Shown: positions 2 through 14,450 of the stretch, in pieces
How positions within the stretch are numbered: the first letter of the stretch is position 1
Layout: the number at the start of each line of letters is the position of its first letter
Virus record (IMG/VR): IMGVR_UViG_3300035157_000603
Coordinates: 1-22,031 of that record
Length of the DNA stretch: 22,031 nt
Direction: 5' to 3' (one strand)
Origin: a virus
The notes under the pieces: generated by a model
What the model was told of the DNA's origin: nothing
The model's input: only the letters and a program-made list of their open reading frames with translations
The model's database searches: none
Position numbers and translations under genes: made by a program

Positions 2-3000
2 ACATTTAATGGTACTGGTAATTCTGCTGGTGCTATGCTTCAGTCAGATGGATCTATTTTAACTACTTATTCATATTATCAAGGAAGAATAGATAGAATC
101 TTTATTAATAGAGATGGTATATTCCAAGTAGTATATGGAACACCTGCAGATAAACCTACTTCACCTCTTCCTGTAGATGATGCTATAGAAATTGCAACAA
201 TTGATCTTCCACCATATTTGTATGATGTTTCTGATGCTTCTGTAAAATTCTTAGATTATAAGAGATATCAAATGCAAGATATCCATAATCTTGAGACTAG
301 AATTAAAAATTTAGAATATTATACAGCATTGACTTTATTGGAAAGTAATACTGCAAATATGTTCGTCTCAGATGCAGATGGATTGAATAGATTTAAATCT
401 GGTTTCTTTGTTGATAATTTCTCAACATTCCTTGCACAAGAACTTAGTGAAGGAGTTAAGAATAGTATTGATCCTACACATGGAGAATTAAGACCATCTC
501 ATTATACAACTTCAGTTGACCTTATGCCTGGTCCTGTTGAAAATAATATTCCTAATCAAGATAAGAATTTTGAGACTCCTCAAGGTTTGAATATTAGAAA
601 GAATGATGGTATTATTACATTAGATTATGGTGAAATAATATGGCAACAACAAACTCATGGAACTAGAGTTGAAAGTGTAACTCCTTATGTTGTTTCTTAT
701 TGGAAGGCAGATTTGGAATTAACTCCAGAATCTGATACATGGATTGATCAAACTAGATTAGATGCTCGTATTATTAACAGAGAAGGTAATTTTGCTGAAA
801 CCGTAGCAGAATTATCTAGAACAAGAGGATTTAATCCTCAGAATGGTTTTGGTCAAACTGTATGGAATTCTTGGGAGACTTTCTGGGCAGGTGAAACTAG
901 ATCAGGAAGAAGGCAATTCTTTGAAGGAAGAACACGAAGAACTGGAAGAAGGAGATGGAGACAGAGAAGAACAGTAAGAGAGACTTGGACTGAGAGAGAT
1001 ATACGACAAACAAGAACTGGTTCTAGAATGGAAATTCGAGAACAATTTGATAGGGAATCTCAAGGAGATAAAGTTCTTAGTAGTAGTCTAGTTCCATTTA
1101 TGAGATCTAGAAATATTGAATTTACTGGAAAATCATTAAAACCATTAACTAGAATATATTCATTCTTTGACTCGCAAGATGTTACTGAATATTGTGTTCC
1201 AAAATTACTTGAAATTAATATGATTTCAGGAACTTTCCAAGTAGGAGAAACTGTTCAAGGAACAACTCAAACATCTTGGAGTGGTGGTGCTGGACCAACG
1301 AATTTAATTACTTTCAGAGTTGCTCAAACAAATCATAAAGAAGGTGAGTATAATATCCCAACTAAAACTTATAAGGATAATCCTTATACTTTACAAACAC
1401 TTTCATCTGCATATTCATCCACTTCTACATTATTGAATGTGGATACATTCTCATTGGCGAATATTAATCAACCAGAATTTAGTGGATATGTTACAAATCA
1501 GATGGTTTTAGTCGGACAATCGAGTGGTGCTCAAGCAAGAATAAGTAATGTCAGACTTATTTCTGATATTTCATCATGGCTTCAAGGTTCATTCTTTATT
1601 CCTGATACAAATCAAAATCCATCTGCACCTAGATTTGAGACTGGTAATAAGTTGTTTAGACTTACTAGTGACGAAGATAATGGTGCAGGAGCTTCTACTA
1701 GAGGTGAAGATGAGTATAGAGCAGAAGGAACACATCAAGTAGTTCAAGAAACTATCATTTCTACTAGAAATGCTAGTGTAGAAGTACAAGATTTAAGTGA
1801 AACAAGAGATCAAGTTGAGAGAATAGGAGGTACATTCTCACAGACTAGAGATAATTGGATAACTACAGCAACATGGAGAATTGGTGGTGACCCTCTTGCA
1901 CAAACATTTAGTGTTGAGGATGAAACAGGTGTATTTGTAACAAAAGCAGATGTCTTCTTTAGAACAAAAGATGACATGGAGATACCAGTTAATTTCTCTA
2001 TTAGAACAGTAAGTAATGGTATTCCAACTAAAACTATTGTTCCTGGAACAACTGTTATATTAGAACCTGGTGATATTAATATCTCTAGTGATGGTTCTTT
2101 TGCTACCACATTTGAGTTTAAATCTCCTGTTTTCTTAGAATCAGGAGAAGAATATGCTATGGTTTTATTATCAAACTCTGCAAAATATTCAGTTTATATT
2201 TCTAGAGTTGGTGAAAATGATTTAATCACTGATTCTTTCGTTGGTCAGCAACCATTTTTGGGATCTCTATTTAAGTCTCAGAATGCTTCTACGTGGGAAC
2301 CAAGTCAGTGGGAAGACCTTAAATTCAATCTTTATAGGGCAAACTTCGATCCATTAGTAGGTACTGTTGATTTTTATAACCCACAACTTTCTTCTGGAAA
2401 TTCTCAGATTCCTATTTTAGACACTAATGCATTATCATTTACTTCTAGAGAATCTAGAGTTGGATTAGGAACTACTATTGCTGATGGTGGTCTTAAGGTT
2501 GGTAATTTGGTTATACAAGCAGAAACAAATGCTACAGGAAATCTTGCAGGATTTGCAGGAACTGCTATTGCATTAAGTGTTGCTAATGCTGGTATTGGTT
2601 ATACTCCTAGCAGTGGTAGTTTACAATTTGATAATATTAATTTAATTACTGTAACTGGTGGGGGAAGAGGAGCAACTGCTAGTGTTGTTGTTACTGACGG
2701 AACAATTACTGGTGCTAGTGTTACTGGTGCTGGTGGAGGTGGATATCAAGTTGGAGATATTGTTAGTATCAGTAATCTAGGAATTGCATCAGTTGGAAGA
2801 AATGCAAGATTATCCATAGTTTCTATTGGTAATACTAATGAGTTAATTCTTAATCAAATCCAAGGTAATTTCTCTGTAGGAAGTGCTAAAACTTTATCTT
2901 ATGTTAATAATAGTGGAATTACTACTGAAATGAATCTTGATTTTGGTGGAGATGTTCAAGTTGCATCTAACAATATTGTAAATGATGGTTTACATTTAAA

Positions 3001-4306
3001 AGTTAACCATAAGAATCATGGAATGTATTCTAATAAGAATAAGGTTACAATTTCAGGAGCAATATCTGATATTAAACCTACTAAATTGAATGTTGCATAT
3101 GATTCTGATTCAACATCACCTATTTCAGTTGCTAATGCTGGTCAATTCTTGAATTTTGAAAATGTTGGTGTAGGAACTACTAACGCAGGATATATTAAAA
3201 TTGAGAATGAGATTTTAGAATATCAGTCTGTTTCTGGTAATTTAGTTAATATTACTTCAAGAGGTAATAATAAGTTTAATTATCCTGTTGGAACTCCTGT
3301 TTATAAGTATGAACTTAATGGAGTAAGTTTACATAGAATTAATAAAACCCATAATGTTTTATCTACAAAACCTATTACATTTGATGATTATTATGTTAAA
3401 TTGGATATGGCTAATGAAGGTGTGAATAGAACTGTTGCTGGTTATCCTTTATTATATGCAGGAAAAACTAAATCTACAGGTGGAGAACAGATAAGAGCAA
3501 CTCAAAATATTCCTTTTGAACTTATGAGTCCTATTGTAGATAATATTACTTTACCTAAAACTTCAATTGATGCTGAAGTAAGAACTACAACTGGAGTAAG
3601 TTTGGATGGTAGTGAGGATGAATGGCTTGATAATGGATATGAGGCTGTTACTCTTAACGAAACTAATTATCTAGAAACTCCTAGATTAATTGCATCTAAA
3701 GTTAATGAAGATCAATACCTAACAGAAATGGAAGGTAAGAAGTCATTGCATATGAAATTAACTTTAACTACATCAGATAGTCGTATAAGTCCTGTAATTG
3801 ATACTAGAAGAGTTTCTGCTATATTTACATCTAATACTGTTGATAGACCTATTATCGACTATGCAAATGATAGTAGAGTTAATTCTCTTACAGATGATCC
3901 TAATGCATGTCAGTATGTATCTCAGGAAATGATGATTGAGAATTCTGCTTCTTCATTGAAAATAATTCTTGATGCTCATCTTACTGAAGAAACTGATATT
4001 AGAGCATTCTATTCTATTAATAATACTGAAGGTAAGACACCTATTTTCATTCCTTTCCCTGGTTATGATAATATAAATCAAAGAGGTGAAATAATTAATG
4101 TAAAAAATAGTGATGGTAAGTCTGATAAGAAGGTAATTAAATCAAATCAATATACTTTTGGTTCAGATGCTGAATTTAAAGAGTATACCTTTAGTATTGA
4201 CCAATTACCGTCATTTAAAATTTATAGAATTAAATTGGTGATGACTTCTACTAGTCAAGTACATGTACCAAGGGTTAAAAATCTAAGGGTTATGGCATTA
4301 GCATAA
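2..4306 (+). CDS. Large virion structural protein, DUF4815-type (5' truncated)
   Basis: This is the C-terminal part of a very large virion protein. The frame is open from base 2, before the first Met at 35, and the residues encoded ahead of that Met read like the same protein, so the true start lies outside the window. The early part (SYYQGRIDRIF, then YQMQDIHNLETRI and NLEYYTALTLLE) resembles large cyanophage structural proteins annotated as DUF4815; that name is from memory. An unusually Arg-rich segment lies at about bases 891-1040. It is followed by modules of the type GTFQVGETVQG and VLVGQSSGAQA, a Gly-rich beta-repeat (bases 2573-2800) and a module with YIKIENEILEY (bases about 3088-3325). 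The C-terminal third is a well-formed globular region. A role in the baseplate, tail fibre or whisker is likely but cannot be fixed from sequence. It stops one base before the next gene. Confidence 0.82.
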   Translation, partial: TFNGTGNSAGAMLQSDGSILTTYSYYQGRIDRIFINRDGIFQVVYGTPADKPTSPLPVDDAIEIATIDLPPYLYDVSDASVKFLDYKRYQMQDIHNLETRIKNLEYYTALTLLESNTANMFVSDADGLNRFKSGFFVDNFSTFLAQELSEGVKNSIDPTHGELRPSHYTTSVDLMPGPVENNIPNQDKNFETPQGLNIRKNDGIITLDYGEIIWQQQTHGTRVESVTPYVVSYWKADLELTPESDTWIDQTRLDARIINREGNFAETVAELSRTRGFNPQNGFGQTVWNSWETFWAGETRSGRRQFFEGRTRRTGRRRWRQRRTVRETWTERDIRQTRTGSRMEIREQFDRESQGDKVLSSSLVPFMRSRNIEFTGKSLKPLTRIYSFFDSQDVTEYCVPKLLEINMISGTFQVGETVQGTTQTSWSGGAGPTNLITFRVAQTNHKEGEYNIPTKTYKDNPYTLQTLSSAYSSTSTLLNVDTFSLANINQPEFSGYVTNQMVLVGQSSGAQARISNVRLISDISSWLQGSFFIPDTNQNPSAPRFETGNKLFRLTSDEDNGAGASTRGEDEYRAEGTHQVVQETIISTRNASVEVQDLSETRDQVERIGGTFSQTRDNWITTATWRIGGDPLAQTFSVEDETGVFVTKADVFFRTKDDMEIPVNFSIRTVSNGIPTKTIVPGTTVILEPGDINISSDGSFATTFEFKSPVFLESGEEYAMVLLSNSAKYSVYISRVGENDLITDSFVGQQPFLGSLFKSQNASTWEPSQWEDLKFNLYRANFDPLVGTVDFYNPQLSSGNSQIPILDTNALSFTSRESRVGLGTTIADGGLKVGNLVIQAETNATGNLAGFAGTAIALSVANAGIGYTPSSGSLQFDNINLITVTGGGRGATASVVVTDGTITGASVTGAGGGGYQVGDIVSISNLGIASVGRNARLSIVSIGNTNELILNQIQGNFSVGSAKTLSYVNNSGITTEMNLDFGGDVQVASNNIVNDGLHLKVNHKNHGMYSNKNKVTISGAISDIKPTKLNVAYDSDSTSPISVANAGQFLNFENVGVGTTNAGYIKIENEILEYQSVSGNLVNITSRGNNKFNYPVGTPVYKYELNGVSLHRINKTHNVLSTKPITFDDYYVKLDMANEGVNRTVAGYPLLYAGKTKSTGGEQIRATQNIPFELMSPIVDNITLPKTSIDAEVRTTTGVSLDGSEDEWLDNGYEAVTLNETNYLETPRLIASKVNEDQYLTEMEGKKSLHMKLTLTTSDSRISPVIDTRRVSAIFTSNTVDRPIIDYANDSRVNSLTDDPNACQYVSQEMMIENSASSLKIILDAHLTEETDIRAFYSINNTEGKTPIFIPFPGYDNINQRGEIINVKNSDGKSDKKVIKSNQYTFGSDAEFKEYTFSIDQLPSFKIYRIKLVMTSTSQVHVPRVKNLRVMALA

Positions 4307-4307
4307 T

Positions 4308-4526
4308 ATGTACAAAGTAGATGGAAACAGGGATCTAGCAAGAGATCCCGATACAAATTCAATTATTAATGTGAATAATATGGAATATACAAAATATATT
4401 TCTAGTCGTAATGCTAAACAAAAAAAGAATGAAAATCTTGATAGTATGAAAAATGATCTTGATAATTTAAAAAATGAAATGAATGAAATCAAATCACTAC
4501 TTAAGGAATTAGTCAATGGCAATTAG
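4308..4526 (+). CDS. Small coiled-coil phage protein, function unknown
   Basis: A 72-residue protein starting two bases after the stop of the large structural gene. The N-terminal half (MYKVDGNRDLARDPDTNSI) is polar and probably extended. The C-terminal half (residues about 40-70) is rich in Lys, Asp, Glu and Leu with heptad-like spacing (LDSMKNDLDNLKNEMNEIKSLLKEL), which predicts a short coiled coil. The stop overlaps the start of the next gene by 11 bases, implying translational coupling. From memory, small proteins with this RDPxTxxIIN start and coiled-coil end recur in T4-like cyanophage structural regions without assigned function. It may trimerise or bridge its structural neighbours, but that is inference. 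A minus-strand reading frame here is a shadow. Confidence 0.75.
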   Translation: MYKVDGNRDLARDPDTNSIINVNNMEYTKYISSRNAKQKKNENLDSMKNDLDNLKNEMNEIKSLLKELVNGN

Positions 4527-4905
4527 AAAAATAACATTTGATCCAAATGCAGGAGTACCCGTTGCTTCTAATTTAACCATTTATGGTGGTACTGATTTTA
4601 ATGCAAAATTTAATGTAGTTGATGTTTCCAATGCTGGATATGGGTTTACTGCAGGTTGGGGTGTTTCATCACAAATGATAAAAAGTGCTGGTATAGGAGC
4701 AACAACTGTCCCTACAGCAAGTTTTATTGCAGGTATTAATACTGTTACGAAATCAATAACATTAAATTTACCTAAAGCAACTACAGGAATTATAACTGAA
4801 GGAAGATATGAGTATAATGTTTTAGTAAAATCTGGAGTAGGAACTGTGTATAATATAATAAATGGTAATATACTGGTATATCCAGTTATATCATCAGCAC
4901 CATAA
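4516..4905 (+). CDS. Small beta-sandwich virion protein
   Basis: A 129-residue protein almost entirely of predicted beta strands. The pattern is an N-terminal strand, a GTDFNAKFNV strand, a bipartite core with SSQMIKSAG, then SITLNLPKATTGIITEGRYEYNV and a final strand ending in ILVYPVISS. This matches a widespread family of small phage baseplate or fibre adaptor domains, in which a 'GRYxYDV' strand precedes a C-terminal 'xxGxxxVxP' strand; the family match is by eye. The start overlaps the preceding coiled-coil gene by 11 bases. It sits between tail-fibre-like genes and gp13, so it is probably a virion component made late. There is no signal peptide or membrane segment. Confidence 0.75.
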   Translation: MAIRKITFDPNAGVPVASNLTIYGGTDFNAKFNVVDVSNAGYGFTAGWGVSSQMIKSAGIGATTVPTASFIAGINTVTKSITLNLPKATTGIITEGRYEYNVLVKSGVGTVYNIINGNILVYPVISSAP

Positions 4906-4908
4906 ATA
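4901..4908 (+). promoter_or_regulatory. Candidate T4-type late promoter (CATAAATA) upstream of gp13
   Basis: CATAAATA differs from the T4 late promoter octamer TATAAATA only at the first base and matches the NATAAATA form reported for cyanophage late promoters. It spans the stop of the preceding gene and lies 22 bases before the gp13 ATG, with an AAGGGG ribosome-binding site between them at 4914-4919. The background is AT-rich, so a chance match is possible. Confidence 0.5.
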
Positions 4909-4930
4909 TATTGAAGGGGTAATAGTCTAA

Positions 4931-5785
4931 ATGGCACAACCAGCAAGTAGAGCAGACTTAATAAATTATGCTAAGAGGCAGTTAGGTGCCCCTGTGCTGG
5001 AAATTAATGTCGCTGATGAACAAGTAGAAGATATACTGGATGATTCTATCCAATATTTCCAAGAAAGGCATTTTGATGGTGTAGAACGCACCTATATGAA
5101 GTATAAGTTAACTCAAGCGGATATTGATAGAGGAACTGCTAATACAGGTACTAACTCTACAAATACAGAAGGTATAACCACTACACAGGCATCTACAACT
5201 ATTAATGGTAGTGCAATTCAATTTGATTGGGTAGAGAATAGTAATTATTTACAAGTACCTCCAGAGATTATAGGAGTATATAAGATATTTCATTATGACG
5301 GATCTAACACTGCTACTAACAATATGTTCAGTGTTAAATATCAATTATTCTTAAATGACATTTATTATTGGGGATCGACTGAAATCCTGACTTATGCAAT
5401 GACACGGAGATATTTGGAAGATATTAATTTCCTTTTGACAACTGAAAAACAGATAAGATTTAATCAGAGAATGGATAGATTATATTTGGATGTAGATTGG
5501 CAAGCAGTAAATAAAGGAGATTTTATTATCATGGAATGTTTCAGGGCATTAAATCCCAATGATTTTCCTAGAGTATGGAATGACTCATTCTTAAAAAGAT
5601 ATTTTACTGCTCAATTAAAGAGACAGTGGGGACAAAATTTACTTAAGTTCCAAGGAGTTAAATTACCAGGTGGTATAGAGTTAAATGGACGGCAAATCTA
5701 TGATGATGCTAATGTAGATCTTGAAATCATCAGAGAACAAATGTCTAATACTTATGAAGTTCCACCACTTGATATGATAGGATAA
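4931..5785 (+). CDS. gp13: Neck protein gp13
   Basis: A 284-residue homologue of T4 gp13, which with gp14 forms the neck that seals the filled head and joins it to the tail. The N-terminal block is characteristic: QLGAPVLEINVADEQVEDIL followed by DSIQYFQERHFDGVE. The central region (YLQVPPEIIGVYKIF) and the C-terminal block (DFIIMECFRALNPNDFPRVW, then FLKRYFTAQLKRQWGQNLLK) also fit the family. Between them, at about residues 70-95, lies a Thr/Asn-rich low-complexity loop. The length is close to T4 gp13 (309 residues). An AAGGGG ribosome-binding site lies 11 bases upstream. The stop overlaps the gp14 start in a TAATG arrangement, which implies coupled translation. Confidence 0.93.
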   Translation: MAQPASRADLINYAKRQLGAPVLEINVADEQVEDILDDSIQYFQERHFDGVERTYMKYKLTQADIDRGTANTGTNSTNTEGITTTQASTTINGSAIQFDWVENSNYLQVPPEIIGVYKIFHYDGSNTATNNMFSVKYQLFLNDIYYWGSTEILTYAMTRRYLEDINFLLTTEKQIRFNQRMDRLYLDVDWQAVNKGDFIIMECFRALNPNDFPRVWNDSFLKRYFTAQLKRQWGQNLLKFQGVKLPGGIELNGRQIYDDANVDLEIIREQMSNTYEVPPLDMIG

Positions 5786-8349
5786 TGGCATTAAATCCAT
5801 ACTTTCAACAAGGAGCAAGATCTGAACAGAGTTTGGTTCAGAGTCTCATCAACGAACAGTTGAGGATGTATGGTGTTGAAGTGCATTATATGCCTCGAAA
5901 ATATTTGACAACGAATACTGTTATAAGAGAAGTAGTACAATCTAAATTTGATGATGCATATCCATTAGAAGCATATGTAGATACTTATGATGGGTATGGA
6001 GAAAATCCTACTATTCTATCTAAGTTTGGTATAGAACAAACCAATGAAATAACATTGACTATATCAAAGGATAGATGGGAACAATATATTGAACCTTTAA
6101 TGAAGAATGAACCTGATGTCAAGTTAACAACTAGACCTAAGGAAGGTGATTTAATTTATTTCCCTCTTGGTGATAGATTATTTGAAATTAAGTATGTCGA
6201 GCACGAAAAACCATTTTATCAGTTACAAAAAACTTATATTTACGAACTTAGATGTGAACTCTTCCGTTACGAAGATGAGGTTATTGATACTGGTGTTGCT
6301 GAGATTGATGATGAGTTAACAGGTGATACTGCAAGTGGAGAGACTGAAGATGGTACTCCAATTATTATTGGTCCTACTCAAACTCTTACTTTAGTGGGAA
6401 CTGGTGTACAAGCATCAGCAGTAACAGGTATTCGTAATCATTATATTAGATCGGTTAATGTAACAAATAGAGGTGGTGGATATAACCCTCCAATTTATGT
6501 TGGTTTCTCATCAGCACCTGCTGGTGGAGTAACTGGTATAGCAACATGTTCATTAATAGGTGGAATTAATGTTTGTAATTTGAATGTTAATCCCAGAAAT
6601 CGTTCTATTCAAGCAATTAATCTTATTAATACAGGTGCAGGATATACTGTAGCACCTGGTATAGCAATAACAGGTGATGGAAAGAATGCTACTGCTACTG
6701 CAGGGATAGGTACTACTGGTGGTGTTGGTATAGTAACTCTGAGTGCTGCTGGTGGTGGTTATGTATTTGCACCAACAGTTACCTTCTCAACTCCAATACA
6801 TGTTGGAGCAGCAGCAACTGCTATTTTAGACCAACCTATGGTTGGTGGAGGAGTAAGTATTACATCTGCACCTATTAGTATTGGTGCTTCATCATATCTC
6901 TTTAACGGTGGAACAACAGGTGGTGTTTATTATAAGAGAGCACCAGAAGTTATATTTGAGTTACCTACTGGTAGTGCTGATACTGCAACTGCTACAGCTA
7001 CTTTAGACGATTACCATACAACTGGTGGAACAGTATTAGATATTACAGTTAATGAGGGTGGAAGATTCTATGATTCTTCAACTCCACCTACTGTATCTAT
7101 TTCTCATCCAGGATGGTCTTATGCTTCTGCATCAATTGGAATTGCAGGTACTTCTATTGATCCAGATTCTATATCATACGGTTCTACAGGTAGAGCATAT
7201 ACAACAAGTCCTACAGTTATTATTGGAACAGGTAGTGGTACAGATACGCCATATGAATACGCAGTTGGTATTGCTACTATTAATCCAATTACTGGTGTAG
7301 TTACTGATGTTTCCTTTAATGAGGCAGATCCTTGGGCAGTTGGAACTGGTGCTACAATTGGTCTTGGTTACACAGTTACACCAACAATTTCATTTAGTGG
7401 TGCTCCCAGTCCTGTTAATGCAACAGCAACTGCTTCGATTGATGCTGATGGTCAAGTTGAGTCTATTTCTATAGGTAATAGTGGATTTGGTTATGTTTCT
7501 GTACCATCTGTAACAGTAGCAGCACCTACTTCTACTGCAGAACAGTATAGAGCATTAGGAGTTTCTACAATAAGATATAACTCTATTAAGACTGAAGGAA
7601 CTGTTGGTATAGGTTCTACTGTATTTACAGGAATTACTACAACTAATATCGTTGTTGGTGATAGAGTTAGAATGTTCTATGACCATGATGATGTTTTTGT
7701 TAACTATATTCCTGATGATACTTGGGTAACACAAATTGAACCAAATGAAGTTTATATATCTGCAGAAGCAACTAATGTAGGTATTGGAACAACAACATTT
7801 GAGTTTGGTATTGATAAGTGTGGTATTGTTACAGGAATTGCTGTTACATGGGGTGGAGGTGGATATCTAGCACCACCACTTGTATCTATTTCTAATACTG
7901 AAGGAGATAAGAATTATATAGAGGAAGTAGCAGGAATACATACAGCCACAGGTATATCTACATTAACTGCTGCAGGAAATGTAGCAGATGTCTATATAAC
8001 TGATGCAGGTCATGGATATGTATTAACTCCAACAGTTACTCTATCTGAACCTTCTATGGATTCTACAGGAGACTTTATTTTTAATGAAATTGTTAAAGGT
8101 TCAGTTAGCAATACAACTGGTAGAGTGAGATTATGGAATTCAGTAACTAATGTTCTTGAAGTTGCCTCTATTACAGGTTCATTTAAACTTGGTGAGATGA
8201 TAGTTGGACAAACTTCAGGTGCATCACATAAGTTGCGTATTATTGATGTTGAACCTACTGATGATGGATTTGCAGATAACTTTAATATAGAGACTGAAGC
8301 AGATAAGATTATAGACTTTACCGAACAGAACCCATTTGGGATTCCCTAA
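5785..8349 (+). CDS. gp14: Neck protein gp14 with a long internal beta-repeat insertion
   Basis: An 854-residue homologue of T4 gp14, which is only about 256 residues. Residues 1-175 are the recognisable neck domain (SLINEQLRMYGVEVHYMPR, GDLIYFPLGDRLFEIKYVEH, FYQLQKTYIYELRCELFRYE). The C-terminal end (ETEADKIIDFTEQNPFGIP) also matches cyanophage gp14. Between them, residues about 220-790 form a run of roughly nine degenerate units of 40-60 residues, each with an 'I-x-V/I-x-x-x-G-x-GY-x-x-x-P-x-V' core such as NTGAGYTVAP, AAGGGYVFAP, GNSGFGYVSVP, WGGGGYLAPP and DAGHGYVLTP. Near the end come two 'F-x-x-E-x-V/I-x-G' units. Gly, Thr, Ala and Val dominate, so a surface-exposed beta structure decorating the neck is likely. 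It may act as a collar, whisker or host-binding appendage; that role is inferred. The ATG overlaps the gp13 stop. Confidence 0.9.
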   Translation: MALNPYFQQGARSEQSLVQSLINEQLRMYGVEVHYMPRKYLTTNTVIREVVQSKFDDAYPLEAYVDTYDGYGENPTILSKFGIEQTNEITLTISKDRWEQYIEPLMKNEPDVKLTTRPKEGDLIYFPLGDRLFEIKYVEHEKPFYQLQKTYIYELRCELFRYEDEVIDTGVAEIDDELTGDTASGETEDGTPIIIGPTQTLTLVGTGVQASAVTGIRNHYIRSVNVTNRGGGYNPPIYVGFSSAPAGGVTGIATCSLIGGINVCNLNVNPRNRSIQAINLINTGAGYTVAPGIAITGDGKNATATAGIGTTGGVGIVTLSAAGGGYVFAPTVTFSTPIHVGAAATAILDQPMVGGGVSITSAPISIGASSYLFNGGTTGGVYYKRAPEVIFELPTGSADTATATATLDDYHTTGGTVLDITVNEGGRFYDSSTPPTVSISHPGWSYASASIGIAGTSIDPDSISYGSTGRAYTTSPTVIIGTGSGTDTPYEYAVGIATINPITGVVTDVSFNEADPWAVGTGATIGLGYTVTPTISFSGAPSPVNATATASIDADGQVESISIGNSGFGYVSVPSVTVAAPTSTAEQYRALGVSTIRYNSIKTEGTVGIGSTVFTGITTTNIVVGDRVRMFYDHDDVFVNYIPDDTWVTQIEPNEVYISAEATNVGIGTTTFEFGIDKCGIVTGIAVTWGGGGYLAPPLVSISNTEGDKNYIEEVAGIHTATGISTLTAAGNVADVYITDAGHGYVLTPTVTLSEPSMDSTGDFIFNEIVKGSVSNTTGRVRLWNSVTNVLEVASITGSFKLGEMIVGQTSGASHKLRIIDVEPTDDGFADNFNIETEADKIIDFTEQNPFGIP
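6442..8060 (+). repeat. Degenerate protein-level tandem repeats inside gp14
   Basis: About nine diverged units of 40-60 codons, recognised at protein level by an aliphatic strand, a Gly-x-Gly-Tyr turn, a short Pro-containing turn and a second Val/Ile/Thr strand. The units are not identical in DNA, so they are old duplications or kept by selection. One stretch, about bases 7570-7810, interrupts the series with a non-repeat segment. Confidence 0.75.
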
Positions 8350-8373
8350 ATATAATATACTAGGACTATAACA

Positions 8374-9378
8374 ATGTTTGAATATTTTTATAACGAAATT
8401 TTGAGACGTACCATTATTTCATTTGGTACTCTTTTTAATGGAATTTCTGTTGAGCAAAAAAATGATACTGATCAAACTGTTAGTAATATAAGAGTTCCAC
8501 TTGCATATGGACCAACTCAAAAATTCTTAGCAAGATTAGAGCAGCAACCTGATTTGAATAAAGGTGTTGCAATTACTTTGCCAAGAATGTCTTTTGAGTT
8601 TACTGGTCTTACTTACGATCCAACAAGAAAGGTTACTACTACTCAACAATTTACTGTAGCAGACCCTAATGATGGAACTGAAACTAAGAAGGCATTTATG
8701 CCAGTTCCTTATAATATGCAATTTGAACTTGCTATTATGTGTAAGTTAAATGATGATGCATTACAGATAGTAGAACAGATATTACCTTATTTCCAACCAG
8801 CATATAATGTGACTGTAGAGTTGGTAGAAAGTATTAAAGAGAAGAGAGATATACCAGTTATTTTAGAAAATATTACAATGCAAGATGATTATGAAGGAGA
8901 CTTTACTCAAAGAAGAGTTCTTCTTTATACTTTAAGATTTACTGCTAAAACATACCTATTCGGTCCTGTTCAGTCTGCTACCAAGGATATCATCAGGAAG
9001 GCTACATTGGGATATCTTACAGGTACAGATACTACCAATACTACCAGAAATGTTTCTTACACTGTTGTACCTCGTGCTATTAAGAGTTACAATCCTAGTG
9101 CAGAAACTACATTATTAACTGCTGACCTTGATTTAACTACTCAAGTATTTGCTGTTGATAGTATAGGTACTATTGCTGCTAGTGATTATATTGTTATAGG
9201 TAGTGAAGAAATGTTAGTAAGGTCTGTTTCTGGTAATGAAGTAACAGTTACTAGAGGTAAGGATGGTACTACAATTGCTTCTCACTTAAAGGGTGAAGAA
9301 GTTAAGAAGATTACAGCAGCAGATACTCCATATATTGAAGATGGAGATAACTTTGGTTTTGATGGAACTACCTTTTAA
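8374..9378 (+). CDS. gp15: Tail terminator / proximal tail sheath stabiliser gp15
   Basis: A 334-residue homologue of T4 gp15 (272 residues), the ring that caps the completed tail and binds the neck. Like T4 gp15 it opens with MFEYFYNEILRRTI. It then has IRVPLAYGPTQKFLARL, the proline-led ALPRM-type motif (ITLPRMSFEFTGLTYDP), MQFELAIMCKLNDDALQIVE, and the hallmark VEQILPYFQPAYNVTVEL. It continues with a KRDIPVILENI and QRRVLLYTLRFTAK block. Residues about 245-312 are an extra module (TTQVFAVDS, YIVIGSEEMLVRSVSGN, VTRGKDGT) absent from T4 gp15 and accounting for the added length. The start is the first ATG after the gp14 stop, preceded by AGGA at 8362-8365. Confidence 0.92.
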   Translation: MFEYFYNEILRRTIISFGTLFNGISVEQKNDTDQTVSNIRVPLAYGPTQKFLARLEQQPDLNKGVAITLPRMSFEFTGLTYDPTRKVTTTQQFTVADPNDGTETKKAFMPVPYNMQFELAIMCKLNDDALQIVEQILPYFQPAYNVTVELVESIKEKRDIPVILENITMQDDYEGDFTQRRVLLYTLRFTAKTYLFGPVQSATKDIIRKATLGYLTGTDTTNTTRNVSYTVVPRAIKSYNPSAETTLLTADLDLTTQVFAVDSIGTIAASDYIVIGSEEMLVRSVSGNEVTVTRGKDGTTIASHLKGEEVKKITAADTPYIEDGDNFGFDGTTF

Positions 9379-9380
9379 TC

Positions 9381-9842
9381 ATGACTGAAAATTTTGATAG
9401 ATTAGATAAGACTTTTAATGTTACTCCTGTTGAAGTAGAAACTACTCCACAAAATGGTTGCTCTCCTAAAAGTGAGCAACTTACTAATGTTACTCCTGAG
9501 AAACCTGCTAGACTTACTCAGGATGATATTACTAAAGATTATGAGTATACAAGAGGTAATCTTTATAGTATAATAGAGAAAGGACAAGAAGCAATTAATG
9601 GTATTCTTGAACTTGCTCAAGAAAGTGAAATGCCTAGAGCATACGAAGTTGCTGGTCAACTTATTAAGAGTGTTTCTGATGCTACAGATAAATTAATGGA
9701 TCTTCAGAAGAAACTGAAGGATGTTAATGAAGAACAAGTGGCAAAAGGACCATCAACTGTTAATAATGCACTTTTTGTTGGTTCCACAGCAGACCTTGCT
9801 AAATTAATCAAAGGTCAAATACCACCAAATAAGTCTGAATAA
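9381..9842 (+). CDS. gp16: Small terminase subunit gp16
   Basis: A 153-residue homologue of T4 gp16 (164 residues), the small terminase subunit that forms a ring, recognises replicated DNA and stimulates the gp17 packaging motor. Residues about 45-60 (DDITKDYEYTRGNLYSII) correspond to the T4 'LEDDYGVVRRNM' region. The central helical hairpin (residues about 60-118: EKGQEAINGILELAQESE, then PRAYEVAGQLIKSVSDATDK and LMDLQKKLKDVN) corresponds to the oligomerising coiled coil. The C-terminal NNALFVGSTADLAKLI matches T4 'NATVFMGSPTELMDEI'. The N-terminal 35 residues are variable. It starts two bases after the gp15 stop; in T4 it is adjacent to gp17, but here 6.4 kb of other genes separates them. 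Confidence 0.9.
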   Translation: MTENFDRLDKTFNVTPVEVETTPQNGCSPKSEQLTNVTPEKPARLTQDDITKDYEYTRGNLYSIIEKGQEAINGILELAQESEMPRAYEVAGQLIKSVSDATDKLMDLQKKLKDVNEEQVAKGPSTVNNALFVGSTADLAKLIKGQIPPNKSE

Positions 9843-9845
9843 ATA
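9838..9845 (+). promoter_or_regulatory. Candidate late promoter (AATAAATA) upstream of the long fibre gene
   Basis: AATAAATA overlaps the stop codon of gp16 and lies 27 bases before the GTG start of the next gene. It fits the NATAAATA form of the T4-type late promoter. The TAA stop itself supplies part of the match, so a chance occurrence is possible. Confidence 0.45.
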
Positions 9846-9871
9846 TACTTGTAGATGGAGTAGTAATAAAG

Positions 9872-12800
9872 GTGCCACTTAAAAAGCCTTCAGAATTTTA
9901 CGATAAGAAACCTAATTCTCCTTTTGATAATGTAAAGGAAGAGTTAAAGAATGCTAAGCCTGAAAAGGTTGAGCGAATTTCTGAAGCTTTTGATTCTTTT
10001 AAAGGTAATTTAAATAATTTACAAGCACTTAAAGATTTCACTGAAACCTTTGGTACATTTAAGTCTAATGTTGAAAAGGTAGAAACTTTATCATCATCAG
10101 TAGAAGAAATAAGAGAAAGTATTACAGATTTAATTGATAGAAAAGATTTAGATGATGCCATGATGGCTCATCTGTTGTTTGTAGAAGAGTCAATAAGAAA
10201 TGTTCAGGATAAAGTAAAAACAGTTAATTCAAATACTTTATTAGAAATTAATCAGGGATTTGAATCATTATCTGAAAGTGTAGGTAAGTTTTTAGGTGAA
10301 GAAGTACCTGCATATAAAAAGTTAATTGTCGATTCTGAAACAAGAGTTGATAATAGATTTGGAAGTTTTAAAGAGAGTGTAGCAGAATCTTTTAAAGACT
10401 TTGGACAGGATATCTATAAAGAGATTGCTACAATAACTGAGGGTATTGAAGGAGTAAATGAGCAAAGTCTTTCTTCAATTAAGGAAGATGTAAAAGGAAT
10501 TGGTGAAAAAGTAAAGGCATTACTGGAAGAAGAACTTCCACAATATCAGAAGTTTTTTGCTGAAACAGAATTAAAAGTAGAAGATAGAATTAGTGAAAAT
10601 GAAGAATTAGTAGAAGGTAAATTAAAGTCTACTAAGAAAGATTGTAAAAAGGATATTGAAGCAGTAGAAGAGAATATAAAAGGTATTGAGGAATCTAGAG
10701 CAAATACTGAGAAAGGAATAAACAAGTTATTTAAAGCATTAGCAAATGATATTGTTACGCTGGATGAAAAGATAACAGTAGTTGATATTGGTCTTACTTC
10801 AATTAATGAACAGGTTAAAGATAAAGATACCTCTGTTAATAATATTCTAGCAGAAAAGATTATAAAGATTGAGAATCTGGTAGAAGAATCAAAGCAATTA
10901 TCTGATATCTTTAAGAGAGATTTTAAAAATAGAGAGATAAATGAAGACAGAAAACTTCAAGAGTATTCTAGTACTTTAGATTCTTTCTCTGAAAAGATTG
11001 GAAAGTTAGAAGAGAATTTAGAGAGTAATATTTGCGAACTACAGGAGAATTTAGATACTAGTACTACCAAGTATTATGATGATTTAAAATCTAATGTAGG
11101 TGAATTCCAAAAGGATTTAGATGATAAGTTAAAAGGAATAAAGATTGATTTTGTTGTAAATGAAAAGCATATTGAAGGTATAAGAAGAGAATTTGAAACA
11201 GTATTAGAAAAACTTCAAGTAGATAAGATTGAACAAAAGAGTAAGGAACTTACTGGAAAAGTAAGACATTTAGAAGAAGTACTTGAGAAATTTGATGAGA
11301 AGAAAGTTTTATCAGAAGGTCTTTTAAATATTCCTCCTGATGTAGATAATTCTGATCCTCTTACACCATTAGGTCAAAAGTATGTGACCTTTGATAAGTT
11401 AGCAGAGCATTATCGTTTATTTGTTAATAGAGTCCAGCAGCAACTAGCAACCTTTGGAGGTGGTGGTGCTGTTCGTCTTGATGATTTAGAAGATGTTGAT
11501 GTAACAGGTGGTTTACAGAATAATTATATTATCCAATACAGTACAGCAAATTCTAAGTGGGTAGCAAGACAAGGTAATGTTGGTGGTGCTGGTACTTGGG
11601 CATCTGATTCAGTTGGTGTTAATACATCCAGGAATGTAGGTATTGGTACTACTGCTAAAGCTGATGTTGCACTATTTGTTGAGGGGGATATTGAGGCAAC
11701 TGGAAATGTAAATGTTGCAGGAACAATTACATATGATGATGTAACGCATGTAGATTCTCTAGGTCTCAGTACCTTTAGAAGTGGAATAGAAGTACAAACA
11801 GGAACTGCTACCACTGCATTATTAGTACAAGGTGACGCAAGGGTAACTGGTATTCTGACTATTGGTACATCTTCTATTACGCTTGATGGTGATACTAATG
11901 AAATTAATGTTGGTGTTGTTACAGTTACTAATTCAACTATTTTCATTGGTGCTGGTGTAAGTATTAGTGGCACTGCATCTGGTATTAACTCTGCACCTAA
12001 TGTCTTATATGTTGCTAAAGATGGTGATGATAATAATAATGGTACATCAATTGATAATGCATTTTTAACAATTAAATCAGCATGTGCTTCTGCACAACAA
12101 GGAACAACTATTAAGGTTTTATCTGGAAGTTATGAGGAAGCAAACCCAATCGAAGTTCCTGCATTTATTTCAATTGTTGGTGATGATCAAAGAGCAGTTA
12201 ATGTAAGTGGTGCTACAAAGACTAGTAATATATTCCATGTAAGAAAGGGTGTTAAGTTAGCAAACATGACCTTCAAGGAGCATTTACACCCTGCTGCTGC
12301 GGTTTCTTTCCCTACCGATGAGATAGCAGAAAATGTTAATGGTGGTAAATGGAAAGGTCCATACATTCAGAACTGTACGAGTGATACTACAACAGGAATT
12401 GGACTTTATATTGATGGCGATCAAGCAAGATCATTGAAAGCAATGAATGTAGATGCTTTTACTCAGTATAACCAAGGTGGAGTTGGTGTTGCTGTTACTA
12501 ACGGAGGATTTGCTCAGTTAGTTTCATTATTCACTATTTGTACTAATGAAGCAGTTACTGTAGACAAAGGTGGTCAAGCAGATATAGCAAATAGTAACTG
12601 TAGTTTTGGTAGTTATGGTTTGGTTGCAAGAGGAGTAAGTGATTTGCAGTATACAGGTGAAACATCTGCTACTGCTGCAATATCTCAACCAAATATTAAT
12701 GTAAATGTAAGTACACCTACTTTAAATATATCCAATTTCCAGTACGATCATTTAAGTGGTATAGCAACAGTAACAACAACTGCAAATCATAACTTCCAAG

Positions 12801-13675
12801 TAGGAATGGGAGTTACACTTTCTGGTATTGGAGTAACTTGTGAATATGGAACTAAAACATATCCATATCAAACACCTTATATCTTTGATGTAGATGCAAT
12901 TCCTTCAGCTAGAAAGTTTGTAGTTAATGTTGGTATTTCTACTGTTGCACATAGTTATGTGTCTGGTGGTACTGCAAAGATTGATGTAGATAGACCTTAT
13001 GATGGACAGTTAGTTTACTTTGATGAACTTTATAAAGAAGTAACTACTATAACAGTTGGTTCTGGTGGTACTGGATATAGTGCTACTCCTACTGTAACGG
13101 TTGATGCACCTACTGGTCCTAGTGGTGAGACATGTACTGCTTTTGCCACTCTTGAAGGAGAAAGTGTTGCAAGTATTACTATTATTAGTAGTGGTAATCA
13201 ATATGTTGGAACTCCTAATGTAACAATTTCTGCCCCACAGTCTGGAAGTAATACTGCTACTGCCACTGCAACAATGCAACCATTATACTATACAATAAAT
13301 AGTTCAACTCCAGTTACGTCTGGAATTACTACATTGTCACTTGCTACCAATCTACTTAATGAAGTAGGAACTGGTGCTACTGCATACTTTGCACAAGGTA
13401 GTAGAATTATTGCTAGTTCTCATACATTTGAATATGTTGGTGCTGGTAATCAGATTGTTACTGCTACACCAAAACGGGGTGGTGTAACTAATCAAGTAAA
13501 TGAAGTAGTTACTTTAGATGGTGGTAAGGTTCTTTATACAAGTACAGACCAAGCAGGTAACTTTAGAATTGGTGATGATTTGCAAATCAATCAAGAAACT
13601 GGTACAATTAGTGGACGATCTTTTAGTAAGAGTTTGTTCTCAGAAATGACTCCGTTTATCCTAGCATTAAGTTAA
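9872..13675 (+). CDS. Long coiled-coil / beta-helix fibre-like virion protein
   Basis: A 1267-residue protein with a GTG start, preceded by GGAG at 9857-9860 eleven bases upstream. Residues 1 to about 475 are Lys/Glu-rich and predict long coiled coil with little Pro or Gly after the first 25 residues. Residues about 485-575 are a linker with DDLEDVDVTGGLQNNYIIQY and a Gly cluster. Residues about 580-705 carry repeats of the 'NVGIGTTAKADVALFVEGDI-EATGNVNVAGTI' kind seen in phage fibres. From about 709 (VLYVAKDGDDNNNGTSIDNA, ISIVGDDQRAVNV) to about 930 the sequence fits a right-handed beta-helix, pectate-lyase-like fold. Two GxGY units follow at about 1060-1130, then a cyanophage-type C-terminus with SSHTFEYVGAG and TSTDQAGNFRIGDDL. 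A trimeric tail or neck fibre is the best guess. No catalytic residues were identified. Confidence 0.85.
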   Translation: MPLKKPSEFYDKKPNSPFDNVKEELKNAKPEKVERISEAFDSFKGNLNNLQALKDFTETFGTFKSNVEKVETLSSSVEEIRESITDLIDRKDLDDAMMAHLLFVEESIRNVQDKVKTVNSNTLLEINQGFESLSESVGKFLGEEVPAYKKLIVDSETRVDNRFGSFKESVAESFKDFGQDIYKEIATITEGIEGVNEQSLSSIKEDVKGIGEKVKALLEEELPQYQKFFAETELKVEDRISENEELVEGKLKSTKKDCKKDIEAVEENIKGIEESRANTEKGINKLFKALANDIVTLDEKITVVDIGLTSINEQVKDKDTSVNNILAEKIIKIENLVEESKQLSDIFKRDFKNREINEDRKLQEYSSTLDSFSEKIGKLEENLESNICELQENLDTSTTKYYDDLKSNVGEFQKDLDDKLKGIKIDFVVNEKHIEGIRREFETVLEKLQVDKIEQKSKELTGKVRHLEEVLEKFDEKKVLSEGLLNIPPDVDNSDPLTPLGQKYVTFDKLAEHYRLFVNRVQQQLATFGGGGAVRLDDLEDVDVTGGLQNNYIIQYSTANSKWVARQGNVGGAGTWASDSVGVNTSRNVGIGTTAKADVALFVEGDIEATGNVNVAGTITYDDVTHVDSLGLSTFRSGIEVQTGTATTALLVQGDARVTGILTIGTSSITLDGDTNEINVGVVTVTNSTIFIGAGVSISGTASGINSAPNVLYVAKDGDDNNNGTSIDNAFLTIKSACASAQQGTTIKVLSGSYEEANPIEVPAFISIVGDDQRAVNVSGATKTSNIFHVRKGVKLANMTFKEHLHPAAAVSFPTDEIAENVNGGKWKGPYIQNCTSDTTTGIGLYIDGDQARSLKAMNVDAFTQYNQGGVGVAVTNGGFAQLVSLFTICTNEAVTVDKGGQADIANSNCSFGSYGLVARGVSDLQYTGETSATAAISQPNINVNVSTPTLNISNFQYDHLSGIATVTTTANHNFQVGMGVTLSGIGVTCEYGTKTYPYQTPYIFDVDAIPSARKFVVNVGISTVAHSYVSGGTAKIDVDRPYDGQLVYFDELYKEVTTITVGSGGTGYSATPTVTVDAPTGPSGETCTAFATLEGESVASITIISSGNQYVGTPNVTISAPQSGSNTATATATMQPLYYTINSSTPVTSGITTLSLATNLLNEVGTGATAYFAQGSRIIASSHTFEYVGAGNQIVTATPKRGGVTNQVNEVVTLDGGKVLYTSTDQAGNFRIGDDLQINQETGTISGRSFSKSLFSEMTPFILALS

Positions 13676-14009: not shown

Positions 14010-14172
14010 ACTTCTGAGTCAAATTAATGGTTCTGGGCAAGTTGGTATTGCTAGTGATGGAACTAGCCTTGGTAATATGAAAGAACTAAACTTTGATAGT
14101 AATAGAGTTAAATTAAGTGCAACTGGTATAGCAACGGTTACATCAGACCCATTAACAATCATAGGACTATGA
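14002..14172 (+). CDS. Small fibre-like protein, 56 residues
   Basis: A 56-residue frame opening at ATG 14002, inside the last codons of the preceding gene, and closing at TGA 14172, which overlaps the next ATG as ATGA. The protein (MPRLLSQINGSGQVGIASDG...) has the Gly, Thr and Ala content and the 'ATGIATVT' strand seen in phage fibre repeats. These tight overlaps on both sides and the absence of any other explanation for the 159-base gap support a real gene. It might be a short adaptor or a remnant of a once longer fibre protein; neither can be shown here. Confidence 0.6.
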   Translation: MPRLLSQINGSGQVGIASDGTSLGNMKELNFDSNRVKLSATGIATVTSDPLTIIGL

Positions 14173-14450
14173 AAAACTTTTCTCAGTTTATGGGTGAGGC
14201 ACAGGAAGCAAAGAAATGTCCTGATGGTAAGTATTGGTGCTTCCAAGACAAAAAATGTAAAACAATTCCCCGTGGATATCATATAGGTAGAAGCGGATAT
14301 CTAGCACATGATAAAAAAAATGGTAATGGCAACGGCGAAAACGGTAACGGACATGCTAATGGGAATGGACATGGTGGGAATGGTAATGGTAATGGTGGCA
14401 ACGGGTCTAGCGGTAATGGCGGTGGTAATGGCGGTGCTAACGGCGGTTGA
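14169..14450 (+). CDS. Cys-containing Gly/Asn-rich protein with a capsid-targeting-like leader
   Basis: A 93-residue protein in three parts. Residues 1-11 are MKNFSQFMGEA, which resembles the T4 capsid-targeting sequence MKTYQEFIAEA of internal proteins cleaved by the gp21 prohead protease after a (Leu/Ile)-x-Glu; here the matching tripeptide is Met-Gly-Glu. Residues 15-50 are a basic segment with three Cys (17, 24, 30) in CPDGKYWCFQDKKC, followed by IPRGYHIGRSGYLAHDKK. Residues 51-93 are almost only Gly and Asn with a few His, Glu, Ser and Ala. The tail is encoded by GC-richer DNA than the neighbours. The start overlaps the previous stop as ATGA. I do not recognise a named family. A protein packaged into the head, or a small structural protein, are both possible. 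Confidence 0.72.
   Translation: MKNFSQFMGEAQEAKKCPDGKYWCFQDKKCKTIPRGYHIGRSGYLAHDKKNGNGNGENGNGHANGNGHGGNGNGNGGNGSSGNGGGNGGANGG
14321..14448 (+). repeat. Low-complexity Gly/Asn codon tract
   Basis: An imperfect simple repeat built from GGT/GGC and AAT/AAC codons, with units such as GGTAATGGC. It encodes the Gly/Asn tail of the 93-residue protein. The repetitive DNA would be prone to slippage, and the length may vary between related phages. On the opposite strand it makes a spurious Pro/Leu-rich frame. Confidence 0.85.

Follow-up and report, generated by a model that had tools for sequence, protein, structure and literature searches.

The head-closure gene and its neighbours

The window, the whole 22,031-base IMG/VR virus record analyzed here, carries structural genes 13-14-15-16 in T4-like order, with 17-18-19-20 further on (Table 1). 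Its terminase shares 85% identity with that of Synechococcus phage SynMITS9220M01, which places the window among marine T4-like cyanophages. Related contigs are uncultured and for the most part partial, and we infer the host of the window phage and of these contigs from kinship alone. No psbA match was found in 22 contigs, all of them fragments, and those encoding the shorter form of gp14 described below likewise lacked it.

The 854-residue ORF between gp13 and gp15 is a true member of the T4 gp14/Hc2 family by domain, gene order, and fold, as the first-pass annotation had recognized. PF11649 (T4_neck-protein) matches residues 3-175 (E 2e-29; 103 bits against a cut-off of 25), PHROG 460 (Hc2) matches at E 2e-133, and T4 gp14 PDB chains are matched by sequence at E 2e-24. 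The core also has the T4 gp14 fold (Foldseek E 6.7e-6, probability 1.0), although the superposition is loose owing to a low-confidence model. The interval first highlighted, 6442-8060, captures the repeat region, but the gene itself occupies 5785-8349. Mis-assembly, a concern raised at that stage, and frameshift were both rejected as causes of the long gp14: it is a single open frame, 77 unique ten-repeat proteins were retrieved, and an independent contig (L003) is 93% identical. The conserved C-terminal tail noted earlier is also found in repeat-free cyanophage gp14s, as is the small barrel-like domain preceding it; by analogy with T4 (PMC12270204), the tail ending in NPFGIP is probably the gp15-docking tail.

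Table 1. Features of the gp14 locus (window coordinates)
Feature	Position	Strand	Basis
gp13 head-tail adaptor, ring partner	4931..5785	+	PHROG 211
gp14 head-closure protein, 854 aa	5785..8349	+	PF11649; PHROG 460; T4 gp14 fold match; between gp13 and gp15
Conserved head-closure core, res 1-195	5785..6369	+	PF11649; T4 gp14 PDB chains by sequence and fold
Repeat 1 (res 221-255), common to short forms	6445..6549	+	repeat HMM
Repeat 2 (res 274-308), common to short forms	6604..6708	+	repeat HMM
Segment without DNA alignment in four-repeat L021 (163 nt there)	6681..7961	+	blastn
Repeat 3 (res 313-348), common to short forms	6721..6828	+	repeat HMM
369-residue block (res 347-715), only in long forms	6823..7929	+	alignment
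Repeat 4 (res 376-407), only in long form	6910..7005	+	repeat HMM
Repeat 5 (res 416-453), only in long form	7030..7143	+	repeat HMM
Repeat 6 (res 462-500), only in long form	7168..7284	+	repeat HMM
Repeat 7 (res 519-552), only in long form	7339..7440	+	repeat HMM
Repeat 8 (res 558-596), only in long form	7456..7572	+	repeat HMM
Non-repeat domain embedded between repeats 8 and 9 (res ~601-680), only in long form	7585..7824	+	no repeat match; AlphaFold confidence <50
Repeat 9 (res 681-727), only in long form	7825..7965	+	repeat HMM
Repeat 10 (res 733-767) = short-form repeat 4	7981..8085	+	repeat HMM
Small C-terminal barrel-like domain, res ~758-822	8056..8250	+	alignment; AlphaFold pLDDT 84-89; found in repeat-free gp14 too
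Conserved C-terminal tail ending NPFGIP	8251..8346	+	alignment
gp15 tail-sheath stabilizer; res ~242-334 form a C-terminal extension that T4 lacks	8374..9378	+	PF16724; alignment
Two gp14-type repeats near C-terminus (res 1057-1134) of fibre-like ORF 9872-13675	13040..13273	+	repeat HMM

A diverged repeat array of graded length

The repeat region consists of ten diverged glycine-rich GxGY beta-repeats and one embedded non-repeat domain, followed by the small barrel-like domain. A repeat HMM (unit consensus SVTSITITNGGGGYTTAPTVTISSPGGVGATGTATIN) recovers ten units over residues 221-767, every one at E < 0.01. A profile trained without the long forms gives eight matches in the window protein, whereas among 1000 shuffled versions of the region 98% have zero matches and none has more than one. 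The roughly 570 residues first described as GxGY repeats are not pure repeat, since they include a different embedded domain (residues ~601-680) and lead into the barrel-like domain (~758-822). Units within one protein share 21-44% identity, which excludes recent tandem duplication and agrees with the earlier view of the repeats as old and diverged.

In Pfam searches up to E 1, gp14 matched PF11649 alone, and no repeat, Ig-like, or carbohydrate-binding domain was recognized; no NCBIfam model matched the repeat region, and a PDB sequence search returned no counterpart of the repeat. The whole 369-residue block occurs in no phage record searched, the best reaching 56% cover at 31% identity. Related stretches are found in cyanophage baseplate-wedge, tail-fibre, and other structural proteins (PHROGs 19630, 708, 701, and 5342; BFVD viral models). 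The literature searches made returned nothing on gp14 repeats.

AlphaFold modelling, suggested earlier as a check, succeeded in part. Two models reached mean pLDDT values of 62 and 65 and pTM values of 0.41 and 0.45; confidence is high for repeats 1-3 (pLDDT 85-91), repeat 10, and the small domain but low through much of the middle, where some stretches of the block score under 50. Three beta-strands are predicted per repeat unit. In a PDB fold search with the insert, the query model being only partly confident, the best E-value was 0.03; weak matches to translation-factor barrels and antibody chains were at chance level.

Relative to T4, gp14 is indeed enlarged more than threefold (854 against 256 aa), but the figure is about 480 aa in near relatives and 291-657 aa across cultured cyanophages. 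The enlargement is not peculiar to this phage; length comparison reveals a graded series in marine T4-like phages, of which the window is the extreme form. At the lower end, gp14 measures 213 aa in maane, 256 aa in T4, and 279 aa in phi-ST2, the zero HMM matches in T4 upholding the claim that its gp14 has no such region. Repeats are absent at 291-308 aa in P-TIM40, S-PM2 (292), S-SM1 (308), and P-SSM4 (308), and none were found in S-B68 (348 aa). Two repeats occur at 355-390 aa (ACG-2014d, ACG-2014j, S-H38, and S-RIM8, 390) and were found in S-MbCM25 (486 aa); four occur at 470-491 aa (P-SSM2, 470; S-SM2, 481; S-SKS1), and eight at 656-657 aa (S-PRM1; S-CAM9, 657). The cultured cyanophage proteins compared (S-PM2, S-RIM8, P-SSM2, S-SM2, and S-CAM9) share the core, the small C-terminal domain, and the NPFG tail with the window, and their repeats, where present, belong to the same family but number 0, 2, 4, or 8 rather than ten.

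Repeat counts in complete gp14 ORFs (0, 2, 4, 8, and 10) are all even at E 0.01-0.05, although some odd counts appear at 1e-4 or 0.3-1 and the lineages are not independent. The evenness may hint at a two-unit building block. Pairwise duplication was rejected as its cause, because units two apart are not more similar to each other, and the evenness is accordingly treated as a pattern only. The repeats lie ahead of the small C-terminal domain in the window, S-SM2, P-SSM2, S-SKS1, S-CAM9, and S-PRM1, and inside it in ACG-2014d, ACG-2014j, S-RIM8, S-H38, and S-MbCM25, indicating that the same family was inserted independently at two sites.

Cassette gain and loss under purifying selection

Viral contigs fall into two gp14 forms, one of ~470-500 aa with four repeats and one of 839-873 aa with ten. 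Repeats 1-3 and 4 of the short form correspond to repeats 1-3 and 10 of the long form, whose extra material comprises units 4-9 plus the embedded domain. Long forms are near-constant in length, and all 77 unique ten-repeat proteins share a fixed ten-unit layout. Four-repeat phages show 92-97% identity to the window in gp13, the gp14 core, and gp15; for the four-repeat contig L021, identity is 93% in gp13, 97% in the core, 97% in gp15, 95% in the gp15 extension, and 95% in the fibre ORF. At the DNA level, positions 4238-6680 and 7962-13368 align with L021 and nothing between them does, while the alignment with contig L017 runs from 782 to 13343 with a single gap at 6786-8033. Against the short-form relatives, the sole gap in 6-12.5 kb of alignment falls within gp14.

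The closure core of the window is 97% identical to those of the short-form contigs L021 and L018 but 61-65% identical to those of many other long forms. In trees of the core alone, built on 192 columns, the long forms do not constitute one clade (AU p = 1e-4), and the form changes seven times, at least four of these changes being forced by well-supported branches. The sister contigs of the window are all of the short form; its own lineage may have gained or lost the block. The occurrence of both ten- and four-repeat forms among near-identical phages, the absence of a long-form clade, and the second insertion site identify the gp14 repeats as an optional, exchangeable neck module. Judged from these comparisons, the neck of this virus appears to bear an optional, swappable decoration.

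The proposal that selection keeps the repeats holds in one respect: dN/dS in the block is about 0.08-0.37, above that of the core but below 1, and signifies purifying selection. However, the block is present or absent among phages that are 92-97% identical, with at least four changes on the core tree. Between the window and L003, dS is 0.11 in the block against 0.26 in the core; block dS was below core dS in three or four of six further close pairs, clearly so in three, and equal or higher in the others. The lower values suggest exchange of the block between lineages. Across 12 long lineages, conservation of the block roughly equals that of the closure domain and the block is not hypervariable, which argues against strain-specific receptor recognition and favors a generic partner or a mechanical job. 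The window and L003 stand apart from all other long forms at residues 631-660, inside the embedded domain (21-38% identity); a hypervariable adhesin tip was considered there and rejected, as the domain is not unusually variable across lineages.

These data also bear on the idea of near-neutral accretion, in which a spreading repeat family enters the structural genes of marine phages and is tolerated at exposed loops with no definite benefit. Such a process would account for the wide distribution of the repeats over several virion proteins, the two insertion sites in gp14, and the frequency of gain and loss. It would be harder to reconcile with purifying selection on the block, with block identity about as high as that of the core across lineages, and with a ten-unit layout fixed in 77 unique proteins, and we give it little credence.

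A possible collar of gp14 arms

In T4, six gp14 subunits form the gate below the gp13 dodecamer; the barrel spans aa 55-177, and aa 178-256 are disordered before tail docking and then contact gp15 (PMC12270204). The window repeats begin where the T4 barrel ends and lie between the barrel and the conserved tail. By analogy, the gp14 core (residues 1-195) would join gp13 in the closure ring and the C-terminal tail would dock on gp15, while the chain of ten three-strand beta-repeats and the embedded domain would loop out between them. As the channel must pass DNA and six times ~560 residues would hardly fit inside, the arms would point outward; if gp14 is hexameric as in T4, six of them would surround the head-tail joint on its outer side and form a collar. 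Because gp13 and gp15 are nearly identical whether a phage has four repeats or ten, the ring evidently does without the extra units. The arms would then be dispensable for neck assembly, and they are gained, lost, or exchanged as a cassette, a block of six units separating four repeats from ten. Most likely their job would be an accessory one, in which they touch polymers of the cell surface or of particles, or the fibres of the phage itself, in a generic way and with low specificity; adhesion is possible on this reading. The comparisons show the anatomy, its conservation, the gain and loss of the cassette, and purifying selection. The hexamer, the collar, and the function are inferred, as is the outward display, since the AlphaFold models are mediocre and the insert gave no PDB fold match. 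We put the chance that gp14 forms an accessory exposed collar, an optional surface module on a working head-closure protein, at about even.

Such a collar would be built differently from that of T4. T4 gp14 (Hc2, PF11649; PDB 9lu4-9lu7, 9mkb) shares with the window protein the barrel core, the gene order 13-14-15-16, and the gp15-meeting C-terminal region, but it has 256 aa and no repeats, and the T4 whiskers and collar are fibritin trimers that bind domain III of gp13, not gp14 (PMC12270204). S-PM2 shows no collar by cryo-EM (PMC2984593), and the repeat HMM finds zero repeats in its gp14, which fits the collar idea, if weakly. The repeat-free 308-aa gp14 of S-SM1 has been detected in virions (PMC3037559).

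Alternatively, the repeats could be mechanical rather than adhesive: wrapped around the joint of gp13, gp14, and gp15, they would stiffen it as a substitute for the fibritin collar of T4. The insertion lies exactly at the region where T4 gp14 contacts gp15 (PMC12270204), and the closure-like conservation of the block, the near-constant length of the long forms, and the failure to find wac would all suit a structural brace. However, gp13 and gp15 show no sign of partner adaptation, being 93-97% identical between four- and ten-repeat relatives; S-PM2 and S-SM1 manage without repeats; and gp15 length is independent of gp14 length, as P-SSM4 (gp14/gp15, 308/343 aa) and S-MbCM25 (486/261 aa) illustrate. 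Reinforcement of this kind seems unlikely to us, though less far-fetched than near-neutral accretion.

The C-terminal extension of gp15 (9097-9375, residues ~242-334) was observed in relatives with either form of gp14, whose gp15 ORFs measure ~330-350 aa, so these neighboring neck proteins were enlarged independently of each other. S-SM2 and P-SSM4 have such an extension, and S-PM2, S-SM1, and T4 do not. Covariation of the extension with gp14 length, suggested by S-SM1 and S-SM2, was rejected because P-SSM4 and S-MbCM25 contradict it.

As an exposed collar module, the window gp14 would work most like the neck passage structures of lactococcal 936/TP901-1 phages, to which it has no kinship. Those proteins combine a near-identical N-terminus of ~180 residues with exchangeable C-terminal modules over a length of ~500-900 residues, and the TP901-1 structure is non-essential (PMC6669499). 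They differ in being encoded by an unrelated separate gene with recognizable carbohydrate-binding modules and demonstrated weak host binding (PMC6669499), whereas the window carries an insertion in the head-closure protein. The neck fibres of Anabaena myophage A-1(L) offer an extended cyanophage neck decoration of the kind proposed here, but they derive from separate genes (gp80-82), with five fibres on a pentadecamer, and the carbohydrate-binding module at their distal end failed to bind the host (PMC10966104).

More broadly, the marine T4-like head-closure protein may be a platform for exchangeable neck decoration, built from a repeat family that has no Pfam, NCBIfam, or PDB counterpart, entered gp14 at two independent sites in even numbers of units, and is swapped as a cassette between near-identical phages; we hold this view tentatively. 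gp14 closes the pressurized head and is usually regarded as a slowly changing core part, yet the large module that it bears here is optional and is swapped with the ring partners left unchanged, much as phages otherwise exchange fibre tips. If the platform reading is true, nature has supplied pairs of phages with and without the decoration. What neck decoration is for, an old question even for the T4 whiskers, becomes testable with such near-isogenic phages of four and ten repeats.

A direct T4-type whisker was rejected, since a search of the window and nine related contigs detected no fibritin C-terminal domain (PF07921), whereas the T4 control gave E 2e-34. The arms might still act on tail fibres close to the neck, holding or sensing them in the manner of T4 fibritin with the long tail fibres, rather than contact the host. 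Cyanomyoviruses generally lack wac (PMC2984593), and the gp14 repeat type recurs twice in the fibre-like ORF and also in cyanophage tail-fibre models. Yet this ORF is 85-95% identical in four-repeat relatives, with no co-change seen, and T4 fibritin itself binds gp13 rather than gp14 (PMC12270204); we regard a whisker analogue as quite improbable. Immediately upstream of gp13, in the place of wac in T4, lies a 129-aa protein (4516-4905) that resembles PHROG 3304 (L-shaped tail fibre assembly) and gives a weak LtfC-like Pfam match. Beyond the fibre-like ORF, a small ORF (14169-14450) has a low-complexity C-terminal half rich in Gly, Asn, and His (GNGNGHANGNGHGGNGNG...).
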